Below the pieces are notes generated by a model that saw only the letters and a program-made list of their open reading frames with translations, did not search any database and was not told where the DNA came from. Below are positions 1 to 21,733 of a stretch of DNA of 21,853 bases, piece by piece. Both the position numbers and the translations under genes were made by a program. Every line of letters begins with the position of its first letter. Within the stretch, counting starts at the first letter, position 1. The stretch is from Circinella minor (Eukaryota > Mucoromycota > Mucoromycetes > Mucorales > Lichtheimiaceae), in contig JAEPRB010000441.1 in assembly GCA_016758965.1 (NCBI GenBank), positions 1-21,853 on the forward strand. The letters run 5' to 3'.

Positions 1-842
1 AATACATGAATAAGCTTTTTTTTTTCTGATTGAAAATCATTTTCATAAACCATGGCTTTTGGCTCATTGAAAATGCAAGACCTTTTTACTATTGGAAAAT
101 TAAATAAATAACTTGTATATATTTTGACTAAAAAAAGCTTTCATCAGAATCTAAACATGGATTTGTCTGTTTTACAAACTTGCATCTAATTTTAAATTGC
201 TTGTGAATTATAGAAATTATTTTTTAGAGAAATGTATAGCATGTAAATCACCATCGGTAATTTAATTAATGAACATCTTCTTTTTATACTTGTTTTTTAC
301 AGAAGCACAATGATTTATGCTCTGTTGTGATTGAGTAATTTGAGGTAGTACTGCTAGTATTGGATATGTACATTTTATAGAAAAAAAAAGGAAGTTGTTA
401 AAGGCCTACAACCATGAAAAGTTTTACCTGGGCCTATAAAATTTGTGATAACATTTGGCTTTCATGTGATTGAAATCATTGTGAACTACAGTATTTACAC
501 TTTAAATTCAGACAAAATAAGTAAAATTTGGGATGAAATGAGAATAAAATTGGGATGTAGTGAGGATAAAGTTTGGATATAATGAGAATAAAATTTAGAT
601 ATAATGAGAATAAAATTTAGATATAATGAAAATGATATTTGGATAAAGTGAGGGTAAAATTGAGATGAAATGAGAATGAGATTTAGAGATAGTGAGAAGG
701 GAAATCAAAAAAGATTAAATTAGTCTCAAGTATTTCAAAGAGTTAATCCAAATGAACTTACCTGTAATAATCTAAAGTCTTTCTGATAGCAGAAAGCCAA
801 ACCATGTACATTATGGCGATATAAAATATATATTAAGTAAAT
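1..842. other. AT-rich non-coding DNA downstream of the Fanzor gene
   Basis: No reading frame with coding character is visible on either strand. The stretch lies 3' of the Fanzor gene, which is on the minus strand. It contains a short palindrome at 31-45 (TGAAAATCATTTTCA) and a 22-bp tandem repeat at 530-700, listed separately. In TnpB and Fanzor systems the guide RNA is usually encoded at the 3' end of the nuclease gene and in the sequence just beyond it, so part of this region may be transcribed as guide RNA; that is inference only. I found no convincing terminal inverted repeat or target-site duplication, so the left boundary of any mobile element may lie outside the window. Confidence 0.6.
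530..700. repeat. 22-bp tandem repeat (minisatellite), about 7.7 copies
   Basis: Seven consecutive 22-base units can be laid out without gaps at 530, 552, 574, 596, 618, 640 and 662, followed by a partial eighth unit. Each approximates TAGATATAATGAGAATAAAA followed by TT; the fourth matches that exactly and the outer units are more diverged. There are no unique spacers between units, so this is a minisatellite and not a CRISPR-like array. It lies about 140-310 bases beyond the stop codon of the Fanzor gene, on that gene's 3' side. Confidence 0.9.
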
Positions 843-3465
843 TTAAACTCTCTTAAAAGCAGTAGGACGACCATCTTGATTCCAAATGGAAGATGCAATG
901 GACATCATATTCTTGGATGCGTTTACATCTCGCTGCCACAGTGTTTTACATGTTTTACAGACAAGAACACCAAAACCACGAGTATGAGAAGCTTTGTACA
1001 AGGTATCAGTTTTACAAATGTTGCAAATCCTAGACGTCTTGAACTCATCAATTGGCACAACTAGTAGTTCACCTTCTTTTTCACGTTTTTTCAGGGTTCT
1101 ATAGAACATGCCTGTAACACCATGCCTCAAACCTCTAAGTTTTACCAAATCTTTTCCTACCATACCTGTACCAAAAACAATTAGTGGCACTTTAGATTTG
1201 TCGTATTCAAATTTCGAAGGTTTCCATTTATTAGATCTATGTATTATATGTTATTAGACGACTATACAACATTTATTTTGCTCCAGATATTCTTACTTTG
1301 TAACATCATGGGTTCCAACAGTACCGGAAACATCGTTATCATTTATCTTCTTCTTTGCTCTTGCTTTTCTGTCTAAACGCTCATTGCTCTTTTTGGCAGC
1401 CTTCTTCATTTTTCTCCACTTCTTTCGCTTCGTCTTGTTTCTTTTCTTTTTATTATACTTCTTGTCTCCATTCAATAACATATTGACCATGATTTCAGGA
1501 GCTCTCTGTCTACCTTGATATAAAAAAAAGCGATCTTTTGCAGTATCTTTACCATAGAAAGCGAATAATTTATCTTTATGAATAATGATATATTGGATAA
1601 ATCTATCATACAAAATTGAACTGCAAGTCTTTTGTGTGGGAATGTTTGTTTCTATGCTAGTTAGACCTTTACTATCCTTCAGTTTTTGTAATCTTGATGA
1701 ATATTTAGTTGATCCAGTGAGGTTATAATACTCTTTGGTGGAGCATTGTCTAATTTGATGATTACTTGTGTCCAAGCCAATTGCTGCTGTATACACTGCC
1801 TTTCGACCAGGGTCAATAAATACAGGCTGATAAATTCTTTCGACTTCCTCATATTCAAAATCTTCTAAAACAAGGTCATGGTTCTCAATGTCTTTTTTTA
1901 CTTCTTTGAGAGCCGTAGCTCTTCTCTTTTCAAAAAGAAAATCAACTGTAAACCCATCCGATTTGATTGTATTGGAAAATAAAACATTATTTAATCCATT
2001 GGGACGCAAATCATCAATGCTACAATAGTAATGGGCATTTAATTAATATTATAATAGAGTATATTCTGCAGTGCATTGTTTACCTTTTGAATCCTAAGCC
2101 TTTAAAATCAAAATATTTATAAAATAAATCCAATTGAGCATTGTAGCCTCTGGGTAGCTTTTCTTTAGTGAAACAACACAAGGAATTGACACTAATTGTA
2201 ACAAATTTCCAACGAAAAGAAGGTGATGGTGAAATAGTAAATAATCTTGGTAATGGAAGACGTCTAACATCGTAAGGATTATGAGCCAAATGCTCTCTTT
2301 CATACTCGGAGAGTATATAAGCAAGAGAACGAACAAATTTCCCTGGAGAAGCAGATAATGATTTAAGGGTAACCTGAACATCTATATGAGTAGACAATGG
2401 CATGCAGACCTCTTTAATTCTTGACTGTTCACCTTCAGACAGTTGAATACTTTTAGGCCATACAGGATTTCCTTGGCAAACCATTTGATAACAAAATTCC
2501 TTGGCAACCTTGGCTACATGATCAGGACTCATCGTCTATATTCATTGTTAGTTATTTATAAAATATTATTTGTTCAGTATTTGATACTTACCATGAATGC
2601 ATTTTGAAGAATATAACGAATATAACGCAAGACTTTTGCTTCAAAAAGTTCTACTATATTATTCAAATAAGAAGTAGCAACTACAGTACATGCTTCTGAT
2701 ATGCATTGGCTGTTTCCAGAAGCCAAATTTACTTTATAAATGATAGCAGGATACTTGATACGAAATGTATCCCAAGCAGGAATCATGTCAGAAGGTAAGG
2801 CAGTTCCATTGGTTGCTTTACGATTATTTACTAATTGACATATAGAGTACCAGAAATTTTGTTTAAATATACAGTCTGGGATGATATCATCTTTATGCAT
2901 CAGTATATAATAATTTACAAATATTTGAGCCCTAAATATTAATTGTCTAACGTCCTCACAGGCACTTATGATTCTTGACTTGATAGTTGCAGCAGATTGT
3001 GGGTTAACTGATGATGATGTGGTTGCAATGATAGATTCGTTATTACGTATGCATGACCTAAATGGAATCTTTCTTGTAAATGACTGATGGGCTTTACCCA
3101 AATTATTATTGAAGACCTCCAACTTTGATGATAAATGATTTTTACAAAGTGGGGATCGCGATGAGCTATGTCCTACTTCTTTGCAGTTAGAACATACTAC
3201 ATTTGTATTATTTGTCTTTTGTTGTTTTGCTTCCTTCTTTTCTTGCTTCATTTCGAAGCTTTGATTTCTCTTGCATGATGTGCCCACTTTATAGTAGTTA
3301 GAATTGATGAAAAAGGCGATTATATCATACAAACTTACCGGAATCAGCAGTATCTGGGTTATATTTACTGCATTTATAGTAGTTTTTATTATAATGGCCA
3401 ACTAAACCACAATCTACACATGTGGGAACTATTGATTTGGTAGTTGGAATATACACCATTTTCAT
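843..3465 (-). CDS. Fanzor-type RNA-guided endonuclease (TnpB/OrfB-like), five exons
   Basis: Exons on the minus strand are 3465-3339, 3286-2592, 2535-2084, 2019-1297 and 1236-843, giving 796 residues with all phases closing. In order the protein has: two CX2CX4HX7C zinc knuckles (residues 16-32 and 74-90); a long N-terminal and wedge region; FIDPGRKAVYTAAIG with the RuvC-I Asp (about D494); a strongly basic segment (about 611-649), a likely nuclear localisation signal; IVFGTG at the RuvC-II site; IDEFKTSRICNIC, which supplies the displaced Glu (about E730) typical of Fanzors; a C4 zinc ribbon (C737, C740, C759, C762); and WQRDVNASKNMM with the RuvC-III Asp (about D769). The family are RNA-guided DNA nucleases spread with eukaryotic transposons. 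Length and introns favour Fanzor1, by inference. No frameshift or internal stop is seen, so it may be active. An alternative first exon at 3554-3488 is possible. Confidence 0.9.
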
Positions 3466-4384
3466 TTGCTTTGCTACAACTACTTACTAGTTTCAGAATT
3501 TCTTTGATATTTGACACTTTGGATTTTAGCATAGATAATTTCTTTGTAATACATTTAGATACGAAAGGTTTGATAACAAAAGAAAAAGAGCTTTATAATG
3601 ATATATCATTTCTAATAAAGTATGCTCAGTGTTCTGTTCGGTTATCTACGGGTAACCAGGCAGTCAAAAACTGATAACGGGAAAATAAGTATTTGGTTCA
3701 ATACGATGGTAATGAATGAAATAAACGAAAGAAAATGATTTAACTACAGTAAATGAGATTAATTTCATCACAGACAGTAAACATATTGCACTAATACAAT
3801 AAAAATAGTTTTGAAAGAAGGTACACTTGACAGGAAGTATCTTTGTTAGATTGAGTATAAGAAACTGGCTCATCAAAGCCCATCACTCAGTAATCGTCAG
3901 TTGACTAAATTTCAACAGATTGCGTGATAGCATTTAGACATGTTCTTGACGTGACGTATATTCATATTGTTTGGTTTTAATAATAAAGGTTTAAAATTAA
4001 AAAAAAATTATCTTTTTTTTTTTAATGCTTCAGCTTTTATTGTTCGTCAAAGAACCATTTTTTTTTTTTTCGTTCTGACGTTTATTGGAGTGTTTATATG
4101 AATAAAAAAGTAAGGGAGAATGAAAAAGTTATATGTGTGTGGAGAGAGAGAAAGAGAGAAGATATTATTTCCAAACCCGTCTCTTTTTACACACACACAC
4201 TCTCTCTCTCTTTCTGTTTCCCGCCAGGAGAAACACAGACACACATACACTTAATAACCACAAATAACTATGGCAGAATCGTAAGCGCGTGTTTACTTTA
4301 TAACAATGAATAGCTATTATATCTATAATTCCTTTTTATTCTAACTTTCTTTCTTTCTTTAATTACATGATGATATAAAGACAA
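3466..4384. other. Spacer between the divergent Fanzor and EMC3 genes
   Basis: This is the shared upstream region of two divergent genes. Bases 3488-3554 could form an alternative Fanzor 5' exon on the minus strand. At 3654-3670 is a short inverted repeat (GGTTA...TAACC). GA-rich, CA and CT simple repeats lie at about 4135-4220. A pyrimidine-rich tract (TTTCTTTCTTTCTTT) sits at about 4346-4360, just upstream of the EMC3 start, a common feature of fungal promoters. Overlapping open frames here on both strands are low-complexity or lack gene structure and were not accepted. Confidence 0.5.
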
Positions 4385-5667
4385 ATGTTATTAGATCCTG
4401 GTAAGTTAATAATTTTCAAGCCCAAAAAGTATTGATAAAGTTAATAAAACGTATATATCTATCTATTCCAGCTATTAGGGATTGGGTATTAATTCCCATC
4501 ATGATTGTCATGGTTCTCGTTGGTATTCTTCGTCATCATATTACAATGTTATTAACGGGAGAACCAAAGAAACCTCAAGTGAAAGCTATTCGTGAATCGT
4601 AAGTTGCCATCCTTTTATATAAAAAGTGGGGAGGGTATAATAAAAAAAAAAAAAAAGGAAGCTACGCGTTTCTTCAAGACCTTTCTTTTTAATTTATAAT
4701 GATATATAATAGAAAAGCACTTTTACGTGGTATGCGATTACGAACCTATGGCAATCATATTCCAACACATGCATTCAGTAGTAGAAAAGCAATTCTTGCA
4801 GAAGCATATGAAAATGGTCGATATTTAAAGAATTCAGAGGCGGGTAACACTAATAATAATAATAATACACCTACAGCACCACCTAATCCAATGACAGATC
4901 CTGATATGATGGAAGGCATGATGGAAAGCATGAAGAAACAATTGACCAATATGGTACCTCAAATGCTTATTATGGGATGGATTAATTTTTTCTTTAAGGG
5001 TTTTGTTGTTAGTAAGTATAAATATGAAATGGGGATTCCAATTATGAAGAAAATTAATTTAATTGATTATAATGATATGTTAATCAAAAAAAAAAATAGT
5101 TAAATTACCATTTCCATTGACACCTCGTTTTAAAACCATGTTACAAAGTGGTGTGGATACTCGTGATATGGATGTTACTTGGGTGTCTTCATTATCATGG
5201 TATTTCTTGAATTTGTTTGGTCTTGGAAGTGTATTCGCTCTTATCTTGGGTGATAATAATGGTAAATAATATTATATATAAATTACAAGGAACGAGGCAA
5301 AAACATAAAATTATTGGGGTTAATCGATTATTAATTAATTTTATCATTATTAGCTGCTGGAGTAGATATGGCTGCTATGGGTTCTATGCCTGGAGTTATG
5401 CCAGGTGCAGGTCAACCAGGTCAACAAACTGATTTTAAGAAACTTTTTACTGGTGAAAAAGAAAACTTATTAATCACGTCGCACAAATGGGATTTAGATG
5501 ATGTAGAAGAACGATTATTACAAAAATATGGTAAAAAACCAATTAAAAAGGAAAATACCAAAACACAACAAGAATCATCTTCATTGTCATCCAAGAAAGA
5601 AATGTCTGTAAAGGATAAGATTAGAGCAAGTCAACAACAAAAAGGAAATAGTGCTAAACGTCGATAA
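4385..5667 (+). CDS. EMC3: ER membrane protein complex subunit 3
   Basis: Exons are 4385-4400, 4472-4598, 4713-5011, 5100-5261 and 5354-5667, giving 305 residues. The first exon is only 16 bases and is recognised because it supplies the conserved start MLLDPA, joined to [12 protein letters not shown]3 is the Oxa1/YidC/Get1-family core of the ER membrane protein complex and inserts transmembrane helices into the ER membrane. Three membrane segments are visible: about residues 10-28, 132-147 ([13 protein letters not shown]) and 177-197 ([18 protein letters not shown]). Arg26 after the first helix (GILRHH) aligns with human Arg31, a residue important for insertase activity. PFPLTPRF and the C-terminal [13 protein letters not shown] are family signatures. 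The cytosolic loop carries an Asn-rich insert at about 92-99, and the Lys/Ser/Gln-rich tail is typical of fungal homologues. AATAAA signals occur at 5669-5678. Confidence 0.95.
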
Positions 5668-5763
5668 TAATAAATAAAGAATCTAATTATAATTATAAAA
5701 TATATACAATTTTTATATAAAACTTGAAAGATATAAAATAATAAATTTGTTTTGTATTCATTA

Positions 5764-7461
5764 TTATTTTGATTTTGCGAATCCTACACGCTTATTATCA
5801 TAATCAAAAACTGAATAATAATTTCTTAAAAATGTATCACCCATAATCACCATAGGGATAGGTGCATCCGCAATGCCTGAATAACACAAAGTTTTGTTTT
5901 CTGGATTGGACTTTTCACGAATTAAATCCTTATGAGGAACTGGAAATTCATAATCACCCAAACGGAAAATAACATCATTATTTTGAAGTGTATTGCTTGT
6001 CTTGCTATGATTATTTCGTTGCATGTTTTGTTCACAGGGTACTTGCCATCCAAATGATTTGTTATATTCTGCACCAGGAATAGCCATATGAATAGCTTGT
6101 GACATGGAAGGTGGTACTACGATTAAAGTAGTACCGGTATCAATGATCGCTGTAGTAGATGTATTCGATCCAATACTTGGACCACCACCAACACCTGACA
6201 TAATGGTTCGATTACCAATCTTAATACCATTGAATGGTACTTCCCAATATCGATCATTGGTGACATTAAGATAAGTGAAATTTCCTTGATATAAACTGGG
6301 GTCTGTAGCTCCAATTAACTATTATTTCAATATAATGAAAAAATTAGATCCAGGTTATACGTATAAATCCACTTGAATAATAATAAAAGGAACCATCTAT
6401 GTTATAACACATACCAATTGACCGCCTTGATCAGATTGACCTAAATGAAACGAGGCAACAGCGTTCTTGATGACACCTTGATATTTAAGATTTTCAACAA
6501 ATGATCTCTTTGATCCCATCAAAGATAATTTGGCAAACCCAAGTCCAAAAATACCATCCAATTCAGGATCTGTTGCAAATTGAGCAGATACTTTATCTGC
6601 CAATCCAAATAATTGATGTTTGGCAGTTAAGTTTCCAACAGTTAAATCGTCATATCCTTTTGTACCTTGAACAGCAGATCCATCACCATATTGTAATGTC
6701 CATGTATCTGTACGATTATTCAATGTAGTGTTACCATTTGGATTACTACTCTCTTCTTTCATACTGTTCATAGGACTCGTAGTAGGTGAAGATGTTGTTG
6801 TTGTCTCGTTATTTTCTGGAGCAAGTGTAAATGTTGAAGAGTTGAATTCTGAAAAAAATGGATGATCACCACATCGTTGACATCGTTGACTAGGAACCCA
6901 AATATCTGAACTACCTGTATCAAAATCGACATTAAATGATTGTGGTGGTGTACCAATTTGAAGAAGTCCAACGTACTATATAGATATATTTATTTAAATG
7001 AACATGTCAAGTTATACGAATTTCTAAAAGATAAAAATAAAAATAAAAATAAAAAATAGTGTATCCTTATAGAATATGATTTACCTCAACGTCGACGTTA
7101 ACACTTTTTAAATGAACTGCTCCACGAGGATTTTTAATTCCTTTTGTTGTTGAATTTGTCTTTGTTATTGATGGTGATGTAGTATTAGAGCCTGTATATT
7201 TAGCTAAAACACGGTAATGGCGTTCTGGTGTACTTAATATTCGCGTCTTTTTTCGTAGTGGAACCCTTTTTTATACATATAATAAACTAGTCAATCTATA
7301 TGAGTTGTACAGAGAGATAATATATCTATAGAGACATACCTAATTGTAGAATGCACTGGTGTAATCGACTGAATTGGTACAGCTTGAACAACTGCTGGCA
7401 GTAAAAACAACCCTATAGCAGTAATTATACATCCAACAAATAGAAATAATTTTGTTATCAT
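5764..7461 (-). CDS. Secreted pepsin-like aspartic protease (family A1)
   Basis: Exons on the minus strand are 7461-7340, 7265-7085, 6975-6415 and 6318-5764, giving 472 residues. The start is a signal peptide (LFLFVGCIITAIGLFLLPAV) followed by a propeptide containing a basic stretch (RKK). The mature enzyme begins near VEYVGLLQIGTPPQ. The first catalytic Asp is in DFDTGSSDIWVPS (about D120), the flap Tyr in LQYGDGS, and the second catalytic Asp in AIIDTGTTL (about D348). The C-terminal IMGDTFLRNYYSVFDYDN is the usual A1 ending. A Thr/Ser/Asn-rich insertion lies between the first active-site loop and the flap, and CQRC follows the first DTG. Rhizopuspepsin and mucorpepsin are known relatives. 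With no visible GPI-anchor tail it is most likely secreted or vacuolar. It converges on EMC3, with 96 bases between the stop codons. Confidence 0.93.
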
Positions 7462-7949
7462 TTATTATTCGTCTTGTAAAATATATATTGTTATTTGTGA
7501 GAGAAGAAGAAGAAAGAAAGAAAGAAAGAAAAGTACAATGGTAAGATTATTTCATTTTCTATAATTTAAACAAGTATGTTTTCTATTGACTGAGGTTTCG
7601 CATATACATCTTGAAAATATTCCTTTCTACCTCCCCTGCCTTAACATTTTAGCCCTTCCAAAAAGATGTATTATATGAAACCAAAATACATATATATATA
7701 TATATATATATATAAATTTACCGTGAGGTATTCAATAACCCCTGATTACAGATTAACCCCTCCCCCTCACTCATTAATTATCTTAAAGAATTCGCTGTTG
7801 CTTATAATTATGAAATCATCTAAAAAATCAATATCTTTTTTTTTTTTTTTCTATTCTATTCTCTTCTTTTTTTTTTTTTTTTTACCCGAAACGTTTGTTC
7901 TCGAATTTTTTAATTAAAAAAACCCAACAAAATTTTTATTTTATTTTTC
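7462..7949. promoter_or_regulatory. Divergent promoter region between the protease and LDH-like genes
   Basis: This 488-base spacer separates two genes transcribed away from each other, so it should hold both promoters. Visible are AGAA/AAAG repeats (about 7502-7532), a TA dinucleotide run (about 7688-7714), and two long T-rich tracts (7836-7849 and 7867-7883) just upstream of the LDH-like start. No specific transcription-factor site can be assigned. The open frame across 7666-7917 is made almost entirely of these simple repeats and is not a gene. Confidence 0.55.
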
Positions 7950-8302
7950 ATGGGCCATGGTAAAGTAGCCATTATAGGAGCAGGGTCTCTAGGTAGTACG
8001 GTTGCCTATAGTCTCATATTGCGCCGAATGGTTGCTGAGATATTACTTGTAGATATTAATACTGATATATTACAAGGGCAAATTTTGGATCTTTCTGGTG
8101 CTGCTTTAGGTACACATACTATTGTTCGTGCTGGTACCTTTAAAGAAGCAGGTCAAGCTGATATTATTTTAATCACTGCTGATGTTTTAAAACATCAACA
8201 TGAATCACAATTACAGGTAAACCCATTTATATATATAAAAGACATTGACTTTTTTAATGCAACTAAACTTCTTTTTTTTTTCTTCTTCTTAATGTAATAA
8301 CA

Positions 8303-8339
<37 letters not shown>

Positions 8340-8991
8340 GTGGGCAATGCGAAGTCGACAATTACTTGATAGTATTACACATGCATTACTTCCAATTCAA
8401 CCACGAGCTATATTAATTGTTGGTATTGATCCAGTCGATATACTGACACGCCATTTGCAAACAACGGTGAATTTACCTGTAAAACAAATATTCGGAGCTG
8501 GATGTAGTGCTTTAAATACAACCAGAGCAAGACATTGGGTTGCACAAATGAGTGAAGCAACCACCGATTCGAGTGTACAACTTTATGTTATGGGAACGCG
8601 TGATTTACCTGTCATAGGATGGTATTCTGGTTTAGTAGATGGTTTATCTGTGAGTGCCATACCACAATTGACGTTTCATCGACCTCTCTTGGAACGAATT
8701 TTAGCAGCCGATAGAATTAAAGAGATCAAAGAATATAAAGGTGGAGCATGGTATGGTCATTCAGCATTTTTGGTCAAGCTTATAAGGGCTGCTATGTCCA
8801 AAGAAGCCACCATTCATGTTCTTAGTACATATATTGAACGATTTAATACTTGTATTTCAATGCCTGTTATATTAACAAAAGATGGAGTAAAACAAGAAGT
8901 TCCTGTACCATTATCACCAGAAGAACAAGGATTATTAACAACAGCAGTTCATCAAGCAAAAAAAGATTTTGATGAAACAATGATATCTTAA
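7950..8991 (+). CDS. Lactate/malate dehydrogenase-family protein, probable pseudoenzyme
   Basis: Exons are 7950-8216 and 8341-8991, giving 305 residues with phase 0 at the intron. The N-terminal Rossmann fold is well kept: KVAIIGAGSLGSTVAY is the NAD-binding glycine motif, and Asp35 in LLVDIN is the residue that normally selects NAD over NADP. LDLSGAALG and the LIVGIDPVDILT segment also match lactate dehydrogenases. The active site is altered. The usual LDSAR motif reads LNTTR (about 147-151), so the catalytic Asp is Asn. The usual GEHGDS motif, with the catalytic His, reads GTRDLP (about 174-179) and has no His. The substrate loop region (KHQHESQLQWAMRSR) is also atypical. The frame is intact, so this looks like a selected, non-canonical protein and not a decayed gene. 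Loss of dehydrogenase activity is inferred. Confidence 0.85.
8303..8340 (+). repeat. (AAT)12 microsatellite forming the intron's 3' splice site
   Basis: Twelve perfect AAT units (8303-8338) end in AG at 8339-8340, the acceptor of the single intron of the LDH-like gene. The repeat therefore occupies the place of the usual polypyrimidine tract. A T-rich tract lies further upstream at about 8272-8290 and could serve instead. Confidence 0.85.
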
Positions 8992-9151
8992 ATTTTTATA
9001 CTTGTTTCGTTCATATATCATTCTATATATTCCATTCTCTCTCTCTCTCCCCCCCCCTTCCTGGCTCCCTTAAGAAAAAAAAATATTCTCCAATCCATAA
9101 TTTCATTGTTTATTGTAAAAGTTATATATATATATATATATAAAGAAGTTT
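8992..9151. other. Convergent 3' spacer between the LDH-like and malic enzyme genes
   Basis: This short region between two stop codons contains CT repeats running into a C run (about 9036-9057), an A tract, a TA run (about 9124-9142), and TTTATT at 9109-9114. The last reads AATAAA on the minus strand, about 40 bases past the malic enzyme stop, so it is a plausible polyadenylation signal for that gene. Confidence 0.6.
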
Positions 9152-11335
9152 TTAAATTTTATTCTTTAATAATTTTGGTTCAGGTGTCCACATATGATCT
9201 TCTATATAAGAAAGTAATTGTCCCTTTTTAAAAGCATCTTGAATAACTTGATTAGCAGTACCTTGATCGATTGCTTCACGACATACAGCTTCTGCAACAA
9301 TAGCAGATACAGGTCGAATACGATCTAATTCAGGATATAATAATCCTTGTTTTCGTTCTTGAGGAGATAATGAATCAGCTAATGCTTTTGCTGCTTTATA
9401 AATCATGACATCAGAAATAGTTTTAGGTTGTGCCAAAACAGCACCTAAACCTAAACCAGGGAAAATATACATATTATTGCCTTGAGCAGGTACAATGGTC
9501 TTTTGAGTTTCAGTAATAGTATAGGCAGGGAATGCTGTACCAGAAGCAAAAATGACTTGATTATGGGTAGCTTCCATAGCATCAATAAATGTACATTCTG
9601 CTTTTGTAGCTGGATTGGAAAGTGGGAATACAATAGGTCTTGCATTTAATTCGGCCATGCGTTTCAAAACATGGGTATTGAATGCACCTGAAGTAGATGA
9701 AAGACCAATCAATCTAATAAGTTTATATATATATTAGAAGCAACATTCCATCTTTATTTGTAAAAAAAATAAAATGGTTTTAAGGGAATAAAATACTTAC
9801 GCAGTAGGTTGAATATAATTGATAATATCCATTAAATTTTTATATTGTTTACCATTATTATCATTTCTTGCATAATAAACTTTATGTTGAGGAAGTTTAT
9901 CACCACGATCTAATGTAACAAGACCCTAATTTTATAAATAATATGAGTACGTATAATTATCATGACAATAGAATATATATTTCAAGTATACCTTACTATC
10001 TACAATCCAAAAAAGTCGACGTGCTTGTTCTTCTGTCATACCACAATCAATTTGAAAATAACTTTGAATTTGACGTGCAACACCAATAGCTGCAGAACCT
10101 GCACCATAAAATATAATACGATGACTATCTGGAGATACGCCTGATTCAGTATGTGCAAGTGCAATGGCATTAATCATACCTGATAATATGACTGCACCTG
10201 TACCCTAATATTGGAAAAAAAAAAAGAGCGGTGTGTTAAAAGTATAATTCGGAAAATTCTTCCGAATCCCTTCTTTACCTGAATATCATCATTAAAACAT
10301 AATAATTGATTTTGATATTTTTCTAATAATCCAAATGCATGTTCTGAACTCCAATCTTCAAATTGTACAAGAAGTTTTGGATGAACTGTTTTTAATGCTT
10401 TTAATACACGATCTACTGACTCATAAAACTATAAAAAAATAAAAATTCGAATTAAAAATATATTCTTAAATGGAAAATAATGGTGGAATAATATAAAAAA
10501 AAAAAAAAAAAATTACCTCTTTATCATCAGGTCTTAATTTTCTTTCACCAAGATAACATGGATCATTTAAAAGTTGTTCATTATTAGTACCCAAATCAAT
10601 AATAATAGGTAAAGTACGACGAGGATCAATACCAGCTCCAGCAACATAAAGTTGAAGTTTACCAATAGGAATACCCATACCACCTATACCAAGATCACCT
10701 AAACCAAGAATACGTGATCCATCTGAAATAACGGCAATCTCTGGAGAAAACTCTGAGAAAGTAGAAGAATGATAATTTCGAATAATATCACATAAAGTAT
10801 CAAAATCATCTGTACCAGATAAGAAAAGACCATCAGGTACACCAGGAGATGAAAGGAATGGATAAATATTAGAATATTCTTGACAAGCTGTACCTACAGT
10901 AGGTGTATAAATAATAGGTGCCAATTCCTTTATACGTAATTATAATATTTAGTTTCGTTTCATATTTTATTCGTATTGAACCCTTCCAAATAGAATACTT
11001 TCTTGTTCATTTATCTTTTACCTGTAATTCTTCAATTACAATTTTATAAAAGAGACGAATATGAGTGGTTCTTAAACGAGCTATTAAAATATACTTTTCT
11101 AACATGGATGATGTTGAACGAAGGTATTTTAAAATACGTTTCTTTTGAGTATTTATATCTTCAACAGCAGTGGGTAATCTTCCTGTCAAATGAAGAGCTT
11201 TACGTTCAGATAAGGACATAGCAGTTCCTATATTATTTATATAAATATTAAATATTATTTATACGGGTAGAAATACAAATAAAAATATAAAAATAAAAAC
11301 AAACCTTCATTTCCATTTGTAGTAGAATGATACAT
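9152..11335 (-). CDS. Malic enzyme (malate oxidative decarboxylase)
   Basis: Exons on the minus strand are 11335-11305, 11227-11022, 10927-10517, 10428-10279, 10204-9992, 9925-9801 and 9713-9152, giving 565 residues, the usual length. The enzyme converts malate to pyruvate and CO2 while reducing NAD(P). Visible motifs are LAPIIYTPTVGTAC with the catalytic Tyr (about Y86), GIPIGKLQLYVAGAGIDP with the catalytic Lys (about K169), QFEDW with metal-binding Glu240 and Asp241, CFNDDIQGTGAV (D263/D264), and the Rossmann motif FYGAGSAAIGVARQI. LIGLSSTSGAF and FPLSNPATKAEC complete the C-terminal domain. No mitochondrial presequence is evident (start MYHSTTNGNEGTAMSLSERK), so a cytosolic form is favoured. 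Cofactor preference cannot be settled by eye; the VDSKGL segment resembles NADP-type enzymes. In oleaginous Mucorales such enzymes have been proposed to supply NADPH for lipid synthesis. Confidence 0.95.
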
Positions 11336-11808
11336 GATTTTTCTTTTTTTAAAGAACAAGAAAGAAAAGTATAGGCTATTTTTTTTTGATTCTATATAAA
11401 TGTTTCCCTTTTTTTGTGTGTGTATGGTTTATTTTTGATACTCAGCATTCAAATTGACATTTTAGCTGAATAATCATATAGGCTTTTTGTGAGATTGTAC
11501 TTTTTAATGCGAAATTAACTCCATGAGTGTTCACATGACTAATAACTAAAAACAAATCATTTCATTCGGTCAATTTATTCCTTTTTCCTTTTTCCTGTTT
11601 TTTAACTTTTTATTATTGTTTATAATTAAAATTATAATATGTGTGTGTGTGTATCTCTTGATGTGTTATTAATATTATTGATTTATATGCAAAAAGGGTG
11701 GGGGTGGGGGAAAAAGGGAATTCATTTTTCTTTTTTAATATGTAAAAAAAAAAAAAAAAAAAGTTATGTACAAAATATATTATTTACGTATAATCATGCT
11801 TCAGTTCA

Positions 11809-11837
<29 letters not shown>
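11336..11837. other. Spacer: malic enzyme promoter and RING-gene 3' region
   Basis: Both neighbours are on the minus strand, so this holds the 5' region of the malic enzyme gene and the 3' region of the RING gene. Contents are simple sequence: TG-rich runs (about 11416-11424 and 11639-11650), a G-rich patch (GGGTGGGGGTGGGGG at about 11697-11710), a long A tract (about 11744-11762), and the ATT microsatellite at its right edge. No further gene is visible. Confidence 0.5.

Positions 11838-11840
<3 letters not shown>
11810..11840 (-). repeat. (ATT)10 microsatellite that supplies the RING-gene stop codon
   Basis: Ten ATT units read as TAA repeats on the minus strand. The reading frame of the RING gene enters this array in the TAA register at 11840-11838, so the stop codon is the first repeat unit, followed by further in-frame TAA codons. 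Confidence 0.85.
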
Positions 11841-11841
<1 letters not shown>

Positions 11842-13525
11842 GATGATGTACATGCTGGACTTCGACTATAATTTAAATTAATTTAAATTAATATTAAAAA
11901 AGGTATGATTTATAAAAGAAAGAACTTACCATACAGGACAACTTGCATTGACTTGTAACCATTGTTCAATACAACCACTGTGAAATCCATGCATACATGG
12001 TAAATTAATTAATTCTATATTAAAACCTAAAGAATTTAAACAGATAGAACAATCACTATATGTTGCTGTATCACCACGATTTAATTGATGTCTTGGTAAA
12101 GAAGCAATTAATTCTTCTGAAGCACTTTGTACGTGTCGACTTAAATCATATTCCCTAATGTAATAAATTATATTTTTAAAATAATTATAGAAACATCTTC
12201 CTCCTCCTCCTCCCCCCCTTTCTCTCTTTAAATCCTTATTTACCAATTAGAAGGATCTGTAAATGTTGTTTCATGTTGTTCTTGTATTATCCTATATAAA
12301 TTCAATCATATCAATATAAGTTATGACATCAATTATAAATAATTTAAACTTACCTAAGCAATGTCGATAAATGATAATCTGGATCATATTCAGTTGAATC
12401 AAATTCAGATTCTAAAAAAATAAAAATAAAATAAAATACCCGCTTAAGTTGTTAACATTGTATGGAGATACCCTTTTTTCTTTTTTTGTTATCAAATAAA
12501 AATATTTTACCATAATATTCTGGTGGAGGATCATATTCATCCACATCATTAGTAAAATTATCTTCCACATCAGGATATATATTAACATCATTGTCAACAG
12601 TTAAAGTTTCACGTAATAATTCTCCAAGTCCTACTATATCACTGTCTTCTTCTTCTTCTGCTGTTACTGTTTCTTCTTCATATGAATTATTATCATACGA
12701 ATATCTATGAAATAGAGTCGGGTCACTTTCAAATTCCTCATAATTATTATCATCAGAAGAAATGGATCTCCATTCTACATATTCATTTCCAATTTCATCT
12801 TGTATTGAAAGATAATCCACTGAACCCTCCTCATTTTCATTCAAGCTACTCCTATTATTACTGTTACTATTATTACTGACAAGATCTTGATAATCATCAT
12901 CACTATTAGGATCTGTTGGCCATGGTGAATTTGGTTCTTCATTATCATTTACATGTTCACGATAATTATCGAAAAAGAAATAATCAGGATTATATTCTTC
13001 TTCTTCTTCTTCTTCTCGTTCATCATTTTCGTCATAGTGTTGATAATATTCATTATAAGGATAATCATATCCTGTTTCTTCTTCTCCATCATTATTATTA
13101 TCGTTAGGAAAAGTTGTGTCTGTTGGTTCATTATTATTAGGAAAAAGAATATTTGTCAAATCATCATTTCCATATTCTACTTCTTGTTGTTGTTGTGGAT
13201 AAGTTCCAGGTAAAGGAGTATCACTAAAACCATTACGGAATACACTATTCCATAATGAAGCCAATGTTTCATCTTCATCACTCCAAGTGGTTCGATTGTC
13301 TTGAATGGGTTCAATCTAAATACCATTCAATATAAATATATATATATATATATACTTATTTATTTGAAAGAGAGAGAGAGAGAGAGAAAAGAAAAAACAG
13401 TTGAATTGTATATTTAGTAGTTATTTTACCTCTTCAACGAAATCAGAAAGACATCGTTCACATGCTAAATAGTGAGCAGCAATAATTTGAGTTTCTTCTT
13501 GACACGAATGACAATAATAATCCAT
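11838..13525 (-). CDS. RING-H2 E3 ubiquitin ligase with N-terminal BCA2-type zinc ribbon
   Basis: Exons on the minus strand are 13525-13430, 13315-12511, 12411-12354, 12291-12244, 12154-11930 and 11865-11838, giving 419 residues. Residues 5-25 form a C4 zinc ribbon (CHSC...CERC) in the pattern of RNF126/RNF115 (BCA2), followed by DFVEE. A long, very acidic, Asn/Asp/Glu-rich and probably disordered middle (about 35-300) is mostly simple-sequence expansion. The C-terminus is RING-H2: C371-x2-C374-x14-C389-x-H391-x2-H394-x2-C397-x10-C408-x2-C411. All eight zinc ligands are present, but the last is completed only by the 28-base final exon, spliced in mid-codon. The preceding SLPRHQL is also typical of this subfamily. 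RNF126-like proteins ubiquitinate substrates, including mislocalised membrane proteins; the substrate here is unknown. Confidence 0.9.
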
Positions 13526-15407
13526 TCAATATTTTATATATAATTAAAGCAAAACACACGCACACACAAAAAAAAAAAAAACAAAGAAACAAAAAAAGAG
13601 AGAGAGAGAGAGAGAGGAAGAAAAGAAAAAAAAAAGAAAAAAGGTGTGTGTCTATTATGTGTCTCTTTGTATATGTGTGGAACTTTGATAAAAAAAAAAA
13701 AAAAAGATTCCCTTGTTTATATATATGTATTAGGTTTGCGTGTGTACAACAAATAACTTTCACATATTTATTATGGCTCTTTTAGAATAAAAAACAAAGT
13801 TCTTGATATAGTTTCTTGTCAGTTTTTATAAAATAGATTGCATATTATGCATAAACTTCTTTTTTTTTAACTCATTAATCCATTATATATTAAAAGGTAT
13901 TTATTATTATTAAATTATTGTTTCGTTGACTCTAGAATAACTCCCCCCTTCCCCCCCTTTTTTTTTATTATTATTGTTGACAGCAATCATAATGTAACTA
14001 AGTAACACAAATAATCATTCATATGAAAAAATTGTTTTTTTTTTTGCGCTTCAACACCATGACCGACTAATCATTTTGATATTATTGTAATAGTACAGTA
14101 GCTTTTTTTTTTTTTTTACACTCTGGATCAGATATAACATCATCCACAATTTCAGTTTCACTAAAAATATTTTAATGACTTTAATCTACTACATATAAGT
14201 TCTCAAAAAAAAAAAGACCCTTGATCAAAAGTGAGTTTAACCTGTGTTATATATATTTATATTCATTTGTTACGTATTTTTCCAACTAATTCATATCACT
14301 GGGGGGGGTTAAGCTTTTTTTTTTTAAAAAAAAAGTAGGGATTCTTATATTTGCTACATAAATTATATAAAATAATAAATTCAGCATAATAGCAAATAAT
14401 GATTTTCTAAGCTTTTTTAATGAGTATAAATAATTTGTTTGATTTGTTTGTAGAACTTTATCAACAGTGTCAGTTAGTTTTTAAATTGGATCAACCTAAG
14501 AATATTATTTATTGTTAAAAAGGTTGTATAATTGTACCTGAAAATGGGTTGTTTTCATTTGACAGAATCCCCAAAAGTGGAAATTTATTTGAAAAAAGAG
14601 TTGCGACAGTGGTGTTCTTTGATAAGGTGATTTATTATATGTTAAAAAAAAAAGAGATCGCCCCATACCCGTTTTTTTTTGTTAGTAATTAATATAATTA
14701 GTGTTGTTGTCCTCATTGTCATTAAGATGTATATAAATACTGATGTTCAAGTTCTCTTTTTTTATATATTTGCCTCATTGACTTGTCCCGTGCGTCACCT
14801 TCTACCTAATAAAACGTCTATAAAATAATCCATTTGATTGTTCATAAGAAATTTTCCCATAATATTATATCATTCTATCGTATTTGAATAGTATAGCATA
14901 GAATATAATCATAGTTAATGTCTACTATAACATATTTTTCTTCCTATGATAAATCAATTGTTGATTAGGCTAGTAGTTTTTTGTGTTACATACCTGACTA
15001 TAAAAATAAATATATAGTTTCACTTTTTTTTGCTGCATAAATAATTCATGCTTATAATAAATGATTATTTATATAATAAGATTGATTCATTCTATTTTCA
15101 TTATATATATATATATATATATAATATATTTATTGCTTTCTTTTTACATCATAATAAACGCATTATTTTCGTTGTAAACTTAAATAGTTTTGTAGGGGGT
15201 GGGGGACAGAACCAAGTTATTTTTTTTTTCAACGCTTTTTAAATTCCGATTATGTATAGGCTTGTTCTATAGAGGTGGGCCCTTCAACTCCCTTTGTATC
15301 ATTTTACGGGTAACCTCTTCTTATTATTCTTTATTAATCGTTTTTTTTTTTTTATAATCTTTTTATTTTTTCAAACTTAATTATATGTTTAATTTAAATC
15401 CAATGCA
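13526..15407. other. 1.9-kb spacer between the divergent RING and Cdc4 genes
   Basis: Mostly AT-rich DNA with A/T homopolymers, GA repeats (about 13599-13615), C runs (about 13942-13957), a G run (about 14301-14308), a TA run (about 15104-15124) and a G-rich patch (about 15195-15206). No tRNA, snRNA or rRNA was recognised. One gene-like open stretch at 14420-14692 is listed separately. The outer parts should contain the promoters of the two flanking genes. Confidence 0.5.
14420..14692 (+). pseudogene. Possible relic of a coding region, one in-frame stop
   Basis: From an ATG at 14420 a frame stays open for 32 codons (MSINNLFDLFVELYQQCQLV at its start), meets a TAA at 14516-14518, and stays open in the same frame for another 57 codons to 14692. 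The part after the stop includes GCIIVPENGLFSFDRIPKSG and NLFEKRVATVVFFDK, which looks like ordinary protein and not simple repeat. I do not recognise a family. It could be a decayed gene fragment, an exon whose true splice sites I cannot identify, or chance. A possible acceptor (TTTGTTTGTAG) sits at about 14443-14453. Confidence 0.3.
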
Positions 15408-15411
15408 ATGA
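15403..15411 (+). promoter_or_regulatory. Two-codon upstream ORF overlapping the Cdc4 start
   Basis: The sequence ATGCAATGA contains an ATG at 15403, one further codon and a TGA whose last bases overlap the chosen Cdc4 start at 15408-15410. If transcription begins upstream of it, ribosomes would meet this minimal uORF first and could reinitiate at the overlapping ATG. The chosen start is supported only by an open frame into the Ser-rich exon; the annotation of the uORF as regulatory is inference. Confidence 0.35.
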
Positions 15412-18294
15412 ATAATACCACTTCTTCTTCTTCTTCTTCTTCATCCACAATTTTATCCTCGGTTGATATAAAACCACTTGATGAGGTTTGTTATGCAAAA
15501 AAAAAAAAAAAAAAAAAAGTAGTAATGTTTTTTTTATTTTTTATTTTTTGACTCTCCATTTCTAATCAAAAAAGACTTGGTGGGTGGGTGAACGGTTATT
15601 CTTTTGATTTCGGTGTTGGGGTGGATGGGATATTCTCTTTTTTATTATTTTCTTTATAAAAAAAAATTGTTAAATAGTCGATTACTACTACCAACACGAG
15701 TGCAACTCCCGTTCTTCAACAACAACAACAACCGATAACTTATAAAAGCATGAATGATCAAGATAATATATCTAAATGTACAACTAATACGGATGATCCG
15801 TTAAATAAGGCCAAATGGCCTTCATTTGAGGTGATGGATCTTTTTTTGTTTTGTTTTGTTTCGAGATCTTATCTATATGAATATAAAATGTATCTCTCTC
15901 TCTCTCTGTGTGTGTGTGTGGGGGGGGTTTACGTTCATGGATTTTATCCAATTTTTTTTTATAATATCTGGACAGGGGCAAAAAAAAAAAAGAACTCCTT
16001 CCACCGCCTCACCCCTCCTTTCTATTCCCTCCCCTCCTCCTCTCTAGAGTTTTATTTTATTTATGAAAGAAATCATAGAGTTTACTATTTATTCATATTC
16101 AAATTTTTTTTTTAATTTATAGGCTGTTATATCATGTATTCATAATCTATTTTCTCGTAAGCGACCTGTTGAAGAAGATGAGGATGATGACAGTGAGCAT
16201 GTACGACCATCTAAACGACGTCATCGAGAACAAAGTGTTGACAACAAAAACGACAATAAAACGAATACTATTGAAACCATTCATCACGTGAATACCTCTA
16301 ACAACACTAGTAATAATAATAACAGCAGCAGTAGCAGCAGTAGTAGCAGCAGCAATAACATGAATAATACCCCTATTTTAAAACATACAAGCTTACATGA
16401 TCTTAATCAATTACCTGGGATGGTGACAGCATTTGATGAATTAGATCCCGATACCAAAAGCTCCATTCTATTACAACTTCTCAAAAGATCATCTACAAAT
16501 ACCCTTCAACTTGTTAGTTCGTTAATTATCCCAACATTACGTCGTGATTTTTTATCATCCTTACCCAAAGAGATTTCGTTATGTGTTTTATTCTATTTGG
16601 ATGTTTTAACATTATGCAGGGCTTCTACTGTATGTCGATCATGGCGTGATTTAATTAATGGGGATGAATTATTATGGAAACGTCGAATGATACAAGATGG
16701 ATTTAAACATGATGATCCATGGGCATCTCAATATCGCGGTAGTATAAATATTACTTCTGATACCAATGATTCATCACCCTCTTCTTCCTCATCGTCATCA
16801 TCATCATCAACAACAACAACAAATATACTATCATCTAATAATATCAACAACAATAATAATAATAATAATAAAATCAATCCATACAAAGAACGTTATCGAC
16901 GACTTTATACGCTACAACAAAATTGGCGTAAAGGAAGGGTTCGAACAACCCGATTAATTAGCCATCCACATAATGTGGTTACCTGTCTTTCTGTAGACGA
17001 AGATAAAATTATTTCAGGTGCCGATGATCATGTCATTAATATTTATGATGCCAAAACATTAACACGACGACGTTGTTTACGAGGTCATGAAGGGGGTGTT
17101 TGGGCATTACAACATGTGGGTAATACACTTGTAAGTGGATCAACCGATCGAACGGTGCGTGTATGGAATATGTTGAATGGAAAATGTACTCATATTTTTC
17201 ATGGACATGTATCCACTGTACGTTGTCTTCAAATTGTCATGCCTAATAAAAATAATGAACCCAGTCAACCCTTGATTATTGCTGGATCACGTGATTCTAC
17301 TATACGTATATGGCGACTTCCAGATCCAGAAAATGATCCACCTTATGATTATGGTAATACCACCACAAGTAATACGGGTGTACGAAATAATACGACGGGT
17401 ACGAATGGAAATGGTATCAATAATAACAACCGTTCTTCGACTACATCCACCTCATCCACCCACAATAACAACAATAACAATCCATATCATATGTATACAT
17501 TAACAGGACATACAAATTCGGTTCGAGCCATTGCAGCCCATGGAAATATTTTAGTGAGTGGTAGTTATGATCGAAAAGTTTGTATTTGGGATTTATCCAA
17601 AGGAACATTAATTCATCGCATGGAAGGTCATGGTGAAAAAGTGTATTCCGTGGTGATCGATCCTGAACGAAACCAATGTATGAGTGGTAGTATGGATGCT
17701 TGTATCAAAATATGGTCTTTGGAAACAGGTCAATGTTTACGTACATTAGATGGTCATTCAATATTAGTTGGATTATTGGGACTTTCTCAAGATCATTTAG
17801 TATCTGCTGCAGCAGATACTACATTACGTGTATGGTCTCCAGAAGGGGATTGTATGCATGCTTTATTAGGTCATCAAGGAGCTATTACTTGTTTTCAACA
17901 TGATCAAGAAAAAATTATTTCTGGTTCAGAAGGTGGTTTAAAACTATGGGATATCAAGACTGGAAAACTTTTACAAAACTTTGTTTCTTATGCAACAGGT
18001 GTTTGGCGAGTTGCTTTTGATCAACGAAAATGTGTAGCTGCTATCCATTGGTAAATAATGAATGAATGATAATAATAATGATAGAGAGGAGGAGAAGGGA
18101 TTTTTCTGTATTGTTTTCATATAGACATAGGTATATTAATCTAATGCGTCTTTTTTTTTTTTTTTTATATAATAATAAGTAATAATATTACATATTTAGA
18201 AGTACTTGATTTTGGTTCTCATGGTTTAGAAGAAGCTATAAATTATGAGATATCATCTACAACCAATCGACCTTTCCATAAAACAAAATATTAA
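15408..18294 (+). CDS. CDC4: Cdc4/Fbw7-type F-box and WD40 protein (SCF substrate receptor)
   Basis: Exons are 15408-15485, 15678-15830, 16123-18050 and 18180-18294, giving 757 residues. The first 200 residues are Ser/Asn/Gln-rich and include a basic KRRH cluster (about 108-111), a possible nuclear signal. Then come a dimerisation helix (SILLQLLKRSS...LIIPTLRRDFL), an F-box (about 223-262, LPKEISLCVLFYLDVLTLC) that would bind Skp1, and a WD40 propeller from about 350. The three Arg residues that bind phosphodegrons in Fbw7 and yeast Cdc4 are conserved in STDRTVRVW, STVRCL and GSRDSTIRIW (about 420, 444 and 472). Low-complexity Asn/Thr inserts lie between blades. The final exon supplies the conserved YLEVLDFGSHGLEEA tail. 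The complex ubiquitinates phosphorylated cell-cycle regulators such as CDK inhibitors and cyclins in relatives. Confidence 0.95.
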
Positions 18295-19514
18295 ATATTT
18301 TCTTAACCTTTTCTTTTCTCATCCCTCTTTTATATATTTTTAAAAAATAAAAATAAAAAAAATAAAGTTTAACTAGCAACAGATCATAACATAAATACAA
18401 ATTTTAGAATGTTCTTTTTTTTTTTTATCGTATTTAAATAGATCTATCTTGGGGGGGGAGAGAAGTTGTTCTTACTTTTACAATATTTGGAATTGTGGTT
18501 TTTATAAATGACAAATGAATGTAATATTCTCTCTGCTAATGATCATTTATTTAAAGGGAAAAAAAGAAAAAGTTTTTTTCTTTTTTCTTTTTTCATTTTC
18601 ATTTGAATATATAACTCTTTGACAACGACGATAAAAACTTTATTTCGTATACCCAATTTTAAAAGAATAACATGAAGAGATAAAAAAAAAAAAAAGAACA
18701 GCAGATCCCCTATCTCTCTCTCCCGCCATCAAAAAAAAAAAGTTACCCAAAATCTCGGGACCTTTTCTTTTTATAAAGCTGTCAAGAAGGGAAAAAGGTT
18801 GTCAATCCATTTTATTACTATAAAAGTTTTTTAAAGTATCACAAGGCCCTTTTTTTTTTTTTTTTTTTTTTTACTCCAGCTAAAAATAATGTCAGCGGGA
18901 TCAAAAAAAAAAAATAAAAAAAAATAAACGCAATCTATTCATTTTAAACTTGATTAAAAAGATACCTTTCTTTTTTTTTTTTTTGGTTGTCATATTAGTT
19001 ACCATGGAAATCATTTCTTGATAATTTAAATAAAAGAAATAGTTGACGAAAAAAAAAAAAAAAAAAAAAGGTGTGATTTATTATTAAATTAAAAACGTGA
19101 ACTTGCAAAAAAAAAGTTGATGATCGTTTAATAAATAATTATTATATTACTTATTATTTTAAATCGTCTTTAAAAAGAAACCGATTGTGTGTTATATATA
19201 TGTCGTTCTTGTGTAACTTTTTTTTTTTTTTTTTTTACTTCTTTTGAGCTGGTGCAAAAAAAAAAAAAAAAAAAAAGGAGACGGGGGATTGGGAGTTGAG
19301 TTTATAATAAAGGCAACTTGGAACTTTTTACTTTATATTTCTTCTTCTTTTCCCTTTTTTTTTTTTAAAAATTCATCTTTTTTAAACATTCCATATTCCC
19401 CCCTTTTTCAACATCTTTTTTTCATCATCTTTTTTTTTTTTTCTAAAAAAAAAGAGCAAAACAAACAAATATATATATATATATATACATTTATAAAATA
19501 TTAACAACTCTGCC
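18295..19514. other. 1.2-kb low-complexity spacer between Cdc4 and the MEK gene
   Basis: Dominated by long A and T homopolymers, for example 18849-18873, 19050-19069, 19217-19236 and 19256-19276, with a G run at about 18449-18457. AATAAA-like signals for Cdc4 occur at about 18345-18366. Pyrimidine-rich tracts (19338-19442) and a TA run (about 19469-19487) lie just upstream of the MEK start and probably belong to its promoter. No gene or structural RNA was recognised; the open frame at 19244-19504 is homopolymer-derived. Confidence 0.55.
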
Positions 19515-21621
19515 ATGCCTTTACGAAAGAAACGTAACTTTAAAAACTTAACATTAGTCAATTCACCTGTCGTTGTGAGTGATAAACCTAAAGTACCAGA
19601 AAAACGAAGGTCATCAGCACGACGACTTGAAGAAGAATATAGTAAATTATGTGAGCAACTAAGTGATTTGGAGATTGGTCTTGAGTTGCGGCTGGATCTG
19701 CGTCCTGAAGACTTTGAAACTATTGATGAATTGGGTCGAGGTAATGGTGGAACTGTTTGTAAAGTATTACACGTACGAACTCATACTGTTATGGCGAGAA
19801 AGGTATTATTTAGCAAACTGAAAATAATAAAATTATTATTATTGTTATGCATTTTTTTATATTCCCTTTTTTTTTTTTTTATTCCCCTTCCCTTTCCCCC
19901 CCTTTCTTTCTTTCTTTCTCTTACACACACACACACACACACATACACATATATATATATGAAATTATTATATATAAAAACATATACAACCCACAAAAAT
20001 CTTCCCTTTCCCACCAACCCAATCCTTGAAAAAAAAAAAGATCATTATTAAGTGGATATATATAATTTAGGTAATTCACGTGGAAGCCAATGTCAACGTT
20101 CGAAAACAAATTATGCGTGAACTTCAGTTTATGCATGATTGTAATTCTCGACATATTGTCAGTTTTTATGGTGCATTTATGAATGGTGGTGATATTTCGA
20201 TTTGTATGGAATATATGGATATTGGGTAATGTATATATTCTCTTATGATTTATTGGGGGGTGGGGGTTTATATGTACCTTTTATGTTATTGATGTGTGGT
20301 ATACACAAGAAGTTTATTTATTTATTTATTTTGCCATGTGGTAACCACGCGTTGATTATTCTTATTGCAAATTATTATTAATGTTAATATGTTTAATTGA
20401 TTATATACTAATTTAAATTATTATTATTATTTTTTTGGGGGGGGCGGAACGTTATAATAGTTCACTTGACCGGATTTACAAAAAGCATGGGCCGATTCCC
20501 CTCGATGTATTAAAGAAAATTGCTTATGCGGTAATTCATTGTTATATTAGATTTTTTTTTTTATCGTTTGATTTGTTCATTTTTATATCATACTGTTATA
20601 TTGAACAAAGTTTTTATTTTTATTTTAGATTGTAGACGGTTTGATTTATTTGTATGACGAACATCGAATTATTCATCGAGGTAAAAAAAAATAAAGTTAA
20701 TTTATATACATATACATATATATATGTGTGTGTGTGTGTGTGTCTGTGGGGGGGGGCGGTTAGAGGGAAAAACTCATACTTCTTTATTATTATAATAATA
20801 GATTTAAAACCATCCAATGTACTTGTGAATTCTCAAGGACAAATTAAATTATGTGATTTTGGTGTATCAGGACAACTTATTAATTCTGTTGCAGATACTT
20901 TTGTTGGAACAAGCTCTTACATGAGTGTGAGTAGTATGGGGGAGAGATATAGAGAGATCTTATGGATATGAATTATATATATATAGTTATATAGTTATTT
21001 ACATTGATTATATACGTATACTTGTTTTCTAGCCGGAACGTATTATGGGATCCCCTTATTCTGTTAAATCCGATGTTTGGTCATTAGGTATAACTTTAAT
21101 GGAATTAGCACTTGCACGATTCCCATTCCCACCTGATGGTAATCCATTGTCCATCTTTGAATTATTGCAACATATTGTCAATGAACCTGTTCCTTCTTTC
21201 CCACCAAACAAGTTCCCAGAAGTATTAACAGATTTTGTGGATAAATGGTAAGTTTAATGTATATAATAAGATGAAAGGGGGGGGTGCGGGGACAGTAAGA
21301 AAGTTATACATGTTTATATAATGTGATTAAATTATATGATATTGGATATAAATAATAGTTTGGTCAAGGAAGTACAAGACAGAGCTACACCGAGTGATTT
21401 AAGAGTAAGTAAATTAATGATAAAATATGAGCTTAAAGATGATTAATATAAATATATGAAATTGGGAAATTCTATAGAAACACGAGTATTTAACAAATGC
21501 AGCTACAGAAAAGGTTGATTTGGAAAAATGGGCACGTAGTGTTGCAAGTGCACCTGATCGAATTGATATATCACAGTTACAATCAACAACATCTACAAGT
21601 ACTAATAGTCAATCTTCTTAA
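19515..21621 (+). CDS. MAP kinase kinase, MEK/Ste7/Byr1 type
   Basis: Exons are 19515-19802, 20071-20225, 20461-20530, 20629-20680, 20802-20926, 21033-21247, 21359-21404 and 21478-21621, giving 364 residues. The N-terminus holds a MAPK docking-site match, basic KKR followed by NLTL (about 5-14). The kinase domain shows the glycine loop GRGNGGTV (74-81), catalytic Lys96 in MARK, HRDLKPSN (Asp189) and DFG (Asp207). The activation segment [20 protein letters not shown] has Ser217 and Thr221 where a MAPKK kinase would phosphorylate. This SxxxT/FVGT pattern matches MEK1, Byr1 and Ste7/Fuz7 better than the Pbs2 or Mkk1/2 groups. It should phosphorylate an ERK-type MAPK in mating, filamentation or related signalling; the branch is inferred. 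A Ser/Thr-rich tail ends the protein. Several introns contain G runs. Confidence 0.95.
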
Positions 21622-21733
21622 ATTGAATTTTTCTCTCTCTCTTTTTTTTATCTTTTTTTTTTTTTTTCCAGAACTTTGCAACCAAAAAATCAACCTTTAT
21701 AAACCCCCTTTTCCTCCCTTTACAAAACAAAAA

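Follow-up and report, generated by a model that had tools for sequence, protein, structure and literature searches.

An apparently intact Fanzor1 gene, probably part of a mobile element exchanged recently between a Mucor lineage and a Circinella-like host

The window analyzed in this study, i.e., the whole 21,853-nucleotide stretch assigned to Circinella minor (GenBank assembly GCA_016758965.1, contig JAEPRB010000441.1, positions 1 to 21,853), carries on its minus strand a predicted Fanzor1 gene, and our data indicate that this gene is probably intact and belongs to a mobile element that passed in recent times between a Mucor lineage and a Circinella-like host. Recent horizontal transfer is proposed because the window protein is nearly identical to Mucor copies, the differences lie almost entirely on the Mucor side, and even stretches read in a shifted frame match. 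The initial annotation of this DNA had overlooked exon 1 and the zinc knuckles at the N-terminus, and it had not noted that the gene and its host differ in kinship.

Horizontal transfer is commonly recognized by a foreign copy closer than the host genes, by conflict between gene trees, and by a patchy distribution. With gene-model damage counted, the window Fanzor shares 96.9% of 672 aligned residues with M. plumbeus P0001 (INT46_008991), 90.6% of 554 with M. plumbeus P0002 (INT46_004668), and 75.0% of 533 with M. flavus P0005 (MFLAVUS_011127), and two further M. plumbeus homologues, P0003 and P0004, are only 56% identical. In a tree of 25 proteins chosen from 34, eight of which fill less than half of the columns, the window protein was grouped with P0001 and P0002 (98/90) and then with P0005 (100/100), on an end branch of 0. 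A comparison by columns, in which those of low local identity were skipped, pointed in the same direction: window and P0001 differ in 18 of 630 columns, with the nearer relatives favoring the window in 15, P0001 in 1, and neither clearly in 2; for P0002 the corresponding figures were 36 of 530, with 31, 1, and 4. The single column against the window is identical in both comparisons.

P0001 and P0002 belong to the same subfamily as the window Fanzor but, as annotated, they lack its C-terminal WQRD motif and contain shifted-frame stretches, which match another reading frame of the window in 18/19 and 23/26 residues (41/45 together). These stretches may be read as frameshifts in the Mucor genes; annotation or sequencing errors are also possible. 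Since no selection on the Fanzor protein acts directly in a shifted frame, the DNA itself would be nearly identical, which purifying selection does not explain well and a recent transfer would explain.

The host side tells a different kinship. The protein encoded by the F-box/WD40 gene at 16288-18051 was aligned with 11 of the 120 matches listed; it shares 95.6% of the aligned residues with Circinella umbellata, 82% with Phascolomyces and Fennellomyces, and 55.5-59.9% with the proteins taken from Mucor, Parasitella, Rhizopus, and Gilbertella. The identities given by the search itself were 90% for C. umbellata, 79 and 71% for Phascolomyces/Fennellomyces, and 45-51% for other groups (Rhizopus/Gilbertella, 46-48%). 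A quick tree of 26 WD40 proteins, without bootstrap, placed the window gene with C. umbellata with full support in the Shimodaira-Hasegawa-like approximate likelihood ratio test (SH-aLRT 100), at a path of 0.03, vs. at least 1.2 outside their four-row clade; because this clade has a long stem, the WD40 gene may be fast-evolving. Moreover, the CDC4-like protein P0046 of C. umbellata has a 96% match on another contig of the host genome (C75), where M. flavus P0103, which may not be the exact orthologue of P0046, reaches 65% over its best stretch. To judge from these proteins, the host genome (46.6 Mb, 619 contigs) is Circinella-like; in the NCBI taxonomy, Circinella belongs to Lichtheimiaceae and Mucor to Mucoraceae. 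The identity of the Fanzor to its foreign copy (96.9%) exceeds that of two host genes (55.9-59.9% and 65%), and the Fanzor tree, which joins the window to Mucor, conflicts with the host gene tree, which joins it to Circinella. Base composition was considered as a further sign of foreign origin and set aside, as G+C content at third codon positions does not set the Fanzor apart (0.28 vs. 0.21 in the WD40 gene, the only two genes compared).

Regarding distribution, two protein searches gave 33 distinct Fanzor relatives (11 in the first), scoring in the second search having been confined to the 7997 candidates with most words in common, and both having drawn on protein records, which often omit transposons. 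Among the 27 relatives that carry an organism name, 13 were from Mucor, 4 from Mycotypha, 2 each from Parasitella, Rhizopus, and Phycomyces, and 1 each from Gilbertella, Pilobolus, Cokeromyces, and Benjaminiella, genera that we take to be Mucorales outside Lichtheimiaceae (family placement was checked for Circinella umbellata and Mucor plumbeus). No Lichtheimiaceae appeared among these 27 named of 33 relatives, although proteins of Circinella, Phascolomyces, Fennellomyces, and Lichtheimia are present in the database. Against this background, the view that both lineages have long carried the Fanzor, through vertical inheritance or domestication, and that strong selection kept it nearly identical seems to us very improbable. 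The single intact copy and the one residue clearly derived on the window side would fit it; but the shifted-frame stretches, free of such selection, are also near-identical, the annotated forms of the M. plumbeus copies appear broken, M. plumbeus also holds the homologues at only 56%, and the family is missing from the named relatives despite its proteins in the database.

Some annotated relatives deserve a comment of their own. M. plumbeus P0003 (INT46_000497) is without the RuvC-I Asp, so annotated Mucor Fanzors include likely dead ones, and P0018 of Mucor velutinosus is annotated as 'dTDP-fucopyranose mutase', most likely a misannotation. Relatives were also sought in viral contigs, where none of 93 pattern matches was confirmed.

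Contamination is the main rival to the transfer, which would be an artifact if the window contig were chimeric or contaminated, or if the contigs of P0001 and P0002 were Circinella DNA. In its favor, the contig starts 842 bases past the Fanzor stop codon; nevertheless, we regard this explanation as unlikely. A 92-residue piece of the neighboring gene, named EMC3-like by eye and separated by about 1.2 kb from the start of the Fanzor, has one match in the host genome, as expected for a gene of the host itself, and the gene at 16-18 kb on the same contig is clearly Circinella-like. Furthermore, M. flavus P0103 has no near-identical match in the host genome (best stretch 65%), two Fanzor queries hit only the window gene, M. 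flavus independently has the sister copy P0005, and both M. plumbeus copies differ from the window copy and from each other. Broad contamination by M. plumbeus might also have shown P0003/P0004 (56%) in the Fanzor search, no search by name having been made.

The gene itself is predicted to span 3554-843 on the minus strand, with six exons and 806 residues, as deduced from the window sequence and comparison with homologues. Splice sites were sought near the exon boundaries of the initial annotation, which had proposed five exons and 796 residues; two combinations of joins stayed open, and the proposed one proved to be the only one with GT-AG introns throughout, whereas its start codon was wrong and falls within intron 1. 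The start was moved to 3554 because the N-terminus of P0001, the best match, MYYKEIIYAKIQSVKYQRNSKTIPTC (MYYKEIIYAKIQSVKYQRNS), has a matching, in-frame upstream exon in the window at 3554-3488; intron 1 would then run from a GTAAGT donor (3487) to a CAATAG acceptor (3429). Three acceptors keep the frame (806, 801, and 797 residues), and the first alone retains zinc knuckle 1 and fits P0001. A similar N-terminal stretch is found in P0003, P0005, P0006, and P0009, and it forms a helix in the predicted model of P0006. Exon 1 (3488-3554) would thus encode residues 1-23; exon 2 (3339-3428), residues 23-53, with zinc knuckle 1; exon 3 (2592-3286), residues 53-284; exon 4 (2084-2535), residues 285-435; exon 5 (1297-2019), residues 435-676, with the RuvC-I Asp; and exon 6 (843-1236), residues 676-806 and the stop codon. 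Retention of any one of the five introns leads to a stop within six residues of the junction, and homologues align across the exon joins. The frame free of stops and frameshifts that had been described for the shorter model holds in the six-exon model.

The window protein is a Fanzor1, as judged from a profile match, from the alignment of its residues with SpuFz1 of Spizellomyces punctatus, and from the predicted fold of a relative. It matches PF07282 (Cas12f1-like TNB) at 38.4 bits (cut-off, 26.3), and the RuvC-I Asp, displaced Glu, RuvC-III Asp, and four-cysteine (C4) zinc ribbon of the initial annotation were all recovered in place, with D494, E730, and D769 becoming D504 (1812-1814), E740 (1044-1046), and D779 (927-929), all on the minus strand, which align with D383, E541, and D606 of SpuFz1. 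The ribbon comprises C747, C750, C769, and C772 (948-1025, minus strand; profile and residue positions). The published Fanzor1 motif comprises a RuvC Asp, [TS][TS]xx ahead of a C4 zinc finger, and then RD (Bao and Jurka, PMC3627910); the window protein has D504, TS two residues ahead of C747, the four cysteines at 747-772, and RD at 778-779. Comparison of a predicted structure with known Fanzors, which had been suggested as a check, found a Fanzor1 fold that fits solved Fanzor1 structures, in the model of the relative P0006 and not of the window protein. A basic stretch at residues 621-659 (1347-1463, minus strand), with K or R in 24 of 39 residues, might act as a nuclear signal or in RNA contact. 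Taken together, the window Fanzor can fairly be called a candidate active system, as a candidate only.

Ahead of the Fanzor1 core lie two zinc-knuckle-like CX2CX4HX7C motifs, encoded on the minus strand, at residues 26-42 (3370-3420) and 84-100 (3144-3194). At least one was detected in 20 of 34 proteins (the window protein and its 33 relatives) and both in 7, whereas the 14 proteins without the motif are mostly short or partial, P0033 (996 residues) being long yet without it. When the first 110 residues of the window protein were shuffled 20,000 times, no pair arose. These paired motifs appear to mark its clade. Classical zinc knuckles have an H-X4-C spacing, from which the spacing seen here departs, and Pfam zf-CCHC remained under its cut-off on the window protein (11.8 of 20.8 bits). 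Searches of PDB with the N-terminal 131 residues gave a chance match only (myoglobin, E 1.3), and a 33-row profile reached a retroviral nucleocapsid at E 5, i.e., chance level. Fanzor together with 'zinc knuckle' or 'CCHC' was not mentioned in the literature searched, which leaves out most subscription journals, and novelty is thus unproven.

Structural comparison spans the surrogate P0006 from about residue 96-97 on, past the knuckle region. In structure alignments the surrogate is 16-18% identical to SpuFz1 (PDB 8gkh, 9cez), whose aligned core begins at residue 18, vs. residue 97 of P0006, and 14-18% identical to PpFz1 of Parasitella parasitica (PDB 9cf0, 9cf1). The PpFz1 sequence was reached by no sequence search or profile, and sequence searches of PDB found no close solved member of the clade of the window Fanzor. 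PpFz1 carries a RuvC insertion of about 100 residues that binds cyclophilin, and the window protein carries the basic insert; residues 1-102 of PpFz1 fall outside the aligned range, so knuckles could be shared.

Toward the ends of the element the evidence is thinner. Downstream of the stop codon, a tandem array of 8 copies of a 22-bp unit occupies 522-698, and two stem-loops at 226-325 (minus strand), 518-617 bases past the stop, fold with a z-score of -3.9 on the strand of the Fanzor, which none of 200 shuffles equaled, vs. -0.8 on the opposite strand. This stretch is a weak guide-RNA candidate and a lead only, because it was picked as the best of 42 overlapping windows scanned. No unusual structure was seen around and after the stop codon (743-860, z -0.9); Rfam gave no match in 1-4300 at gathering scores, and no tRNA was found. 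In earlier studies, the guide RNA of S. punctatus is 88-90 nt long and lies downstream of the gene (PMC10432273), and that of PpFz1 is 75 nt long, with one stem-loop between the first stem-loop and the guide (PMC11423790).

Upstream of the gene, a block at 3698-3639 (minus strand), whose translation resembles M. flavus P0005 in 12 of 20 residues and has a stop in the window frame, is probably a non-coding left part of the element. In the host genome this block matched the window only (the reversed control of one search also gave one match), as did the right flank at 1-842; a palindrome-like stretch at 3639-3659 was rejected as a transposon end, having no second copy there. A piece of P0005 upstream of its Fanzor part (about residues 78-127) has 16 host matches within an E limit of 0.01 (E 1.8e-9 to 0.008), one of which (L015) matches DDE_3 at E 6e-6, just under the family cut-off. 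P0005 itself has no Pfam transposase match, and its join of a transposase-like piece with a Fanzor may be a gene-model fusion; no transposase was recognized beside the window gene, and none is claimed as mobilizer. The remainder of the window (4271-21853) appears to be unremarkable host DNA, with genes named by eye as EMC3-like, aspartic protease, lactate/malate dehydrogenase-like, malic enzyme, RING finger, F-box/WD40, and MAP kinase kinase; searches covered the WD40 gene and the EMC3 piece.

Several points weigh against a mobile, intact element. Sibling copies in the same genome, with which the initial annotation had suggested a comparison, were not found: queries with the Fanzor, its flanks, and P0006, of which the best candidates were scored, gave no second copy and no non-coding relatives of the element, and for this reason there is no evidence of movement within the host genome. 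Comparison of the flanks 1-842 and 3555-4300 showed no terminal repeats above chance (the best local score was 22 for inverted and 27 for direct repeats, and single-base shuffling in the inverted case gave a median of 26 and a 90% point of 31), no target-site duplication was found around the gene, and, because window and contig begin at the same base, the element may lack its right end here. In addition, the homologues used for the gene model are themselves gene predictions, the six-exon model is predicted from DNA sequence, the Mucor copies are known here from annotated proteins alone, and the fold is that of a stand-in relative. The single copy and the lack of inverted repeats, target-site duplication, and non-coding relatives in these searches would suit a recent arrival whose protein is intact but inactive, its right end and guide RNA lost, or silenced; this is possible, if rather doubtful, since a strand-specific structured stretch lies downstream and the frame is nearly free of decay.

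The host genome also holds a very different second Fanzor-like family. Locus L008 (C22:313743-313961) has a 406-residue open frame with GIDLGET, DEYCSS, two CXXC pairs, and HRD, pieces of which occur likewise in L007 (C102:39930-40151), and five host places (L007-L011) match PF07282 under its cut-off.

Regarding an intact element transferred recently between Mucor and the Circinella-like host, with Mucor to Circinella as the likelier direction, the Fanzor protein would bind an omega-RNA made from the right end of the element (minus strand, below 843), and the complex would find a short adjacent motif and open the DNA, both strands of which the RuvC site would cut. Cutting of donor or empty sites, which has been proposed to help TnpB elements persist, could favor keeping or copying of the element, and the zinc knuckles might hold RNA or single-stranded DNA. 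The fuller scenario, in which the element crossed recently between mold families and left a working, near-ancestral copy in Circinella and decayed copies in M. plumbeus, with a knuckle pair undescribed in other Fanzors that possibly holds the guide RNA or aids transfer, is one on which we are evenly divided.

Fanzor1 has been on record in Mucor since 2013, when ten families were listed for M. circinelloides, one of which (MCi-4) sits in a MuDR-like element, and further families for Rhizopus and Phycomyces (Bao and Jurka, PMC3627910). The window Fanzor resembles these in being a Fanzor1 with a RuvC Asp, a C4 ribbon, and a multi-exon gene; it differs in its Circinella-like host and in the two N-terminal knuckle motifs described here, and it may belong to one of the ten families. 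Within the literature searched, this was the only paper naming both Fanzor and Mucor, and nothing joined Fanzor with Mucoromycota; a term search of PMC10711439 found no mention of Mucor, Parasitella, or introns. Transfer of Fanzors among eukaryotic species was judged likely from their distribution in a 2023 Nature paper (PMC10432273), and the present case is new in detail, not in kind.

In brief, the window Fanzor is a candidate nuclease from a clade without a close solved member in PDB, and its N-terminal knuckles offer a defined, removable part for probing guide-RNA binding. If true, so recent a transfer, in which one side is intact and the other decayed, would allow testing whether the Fanzor helps its element spread.
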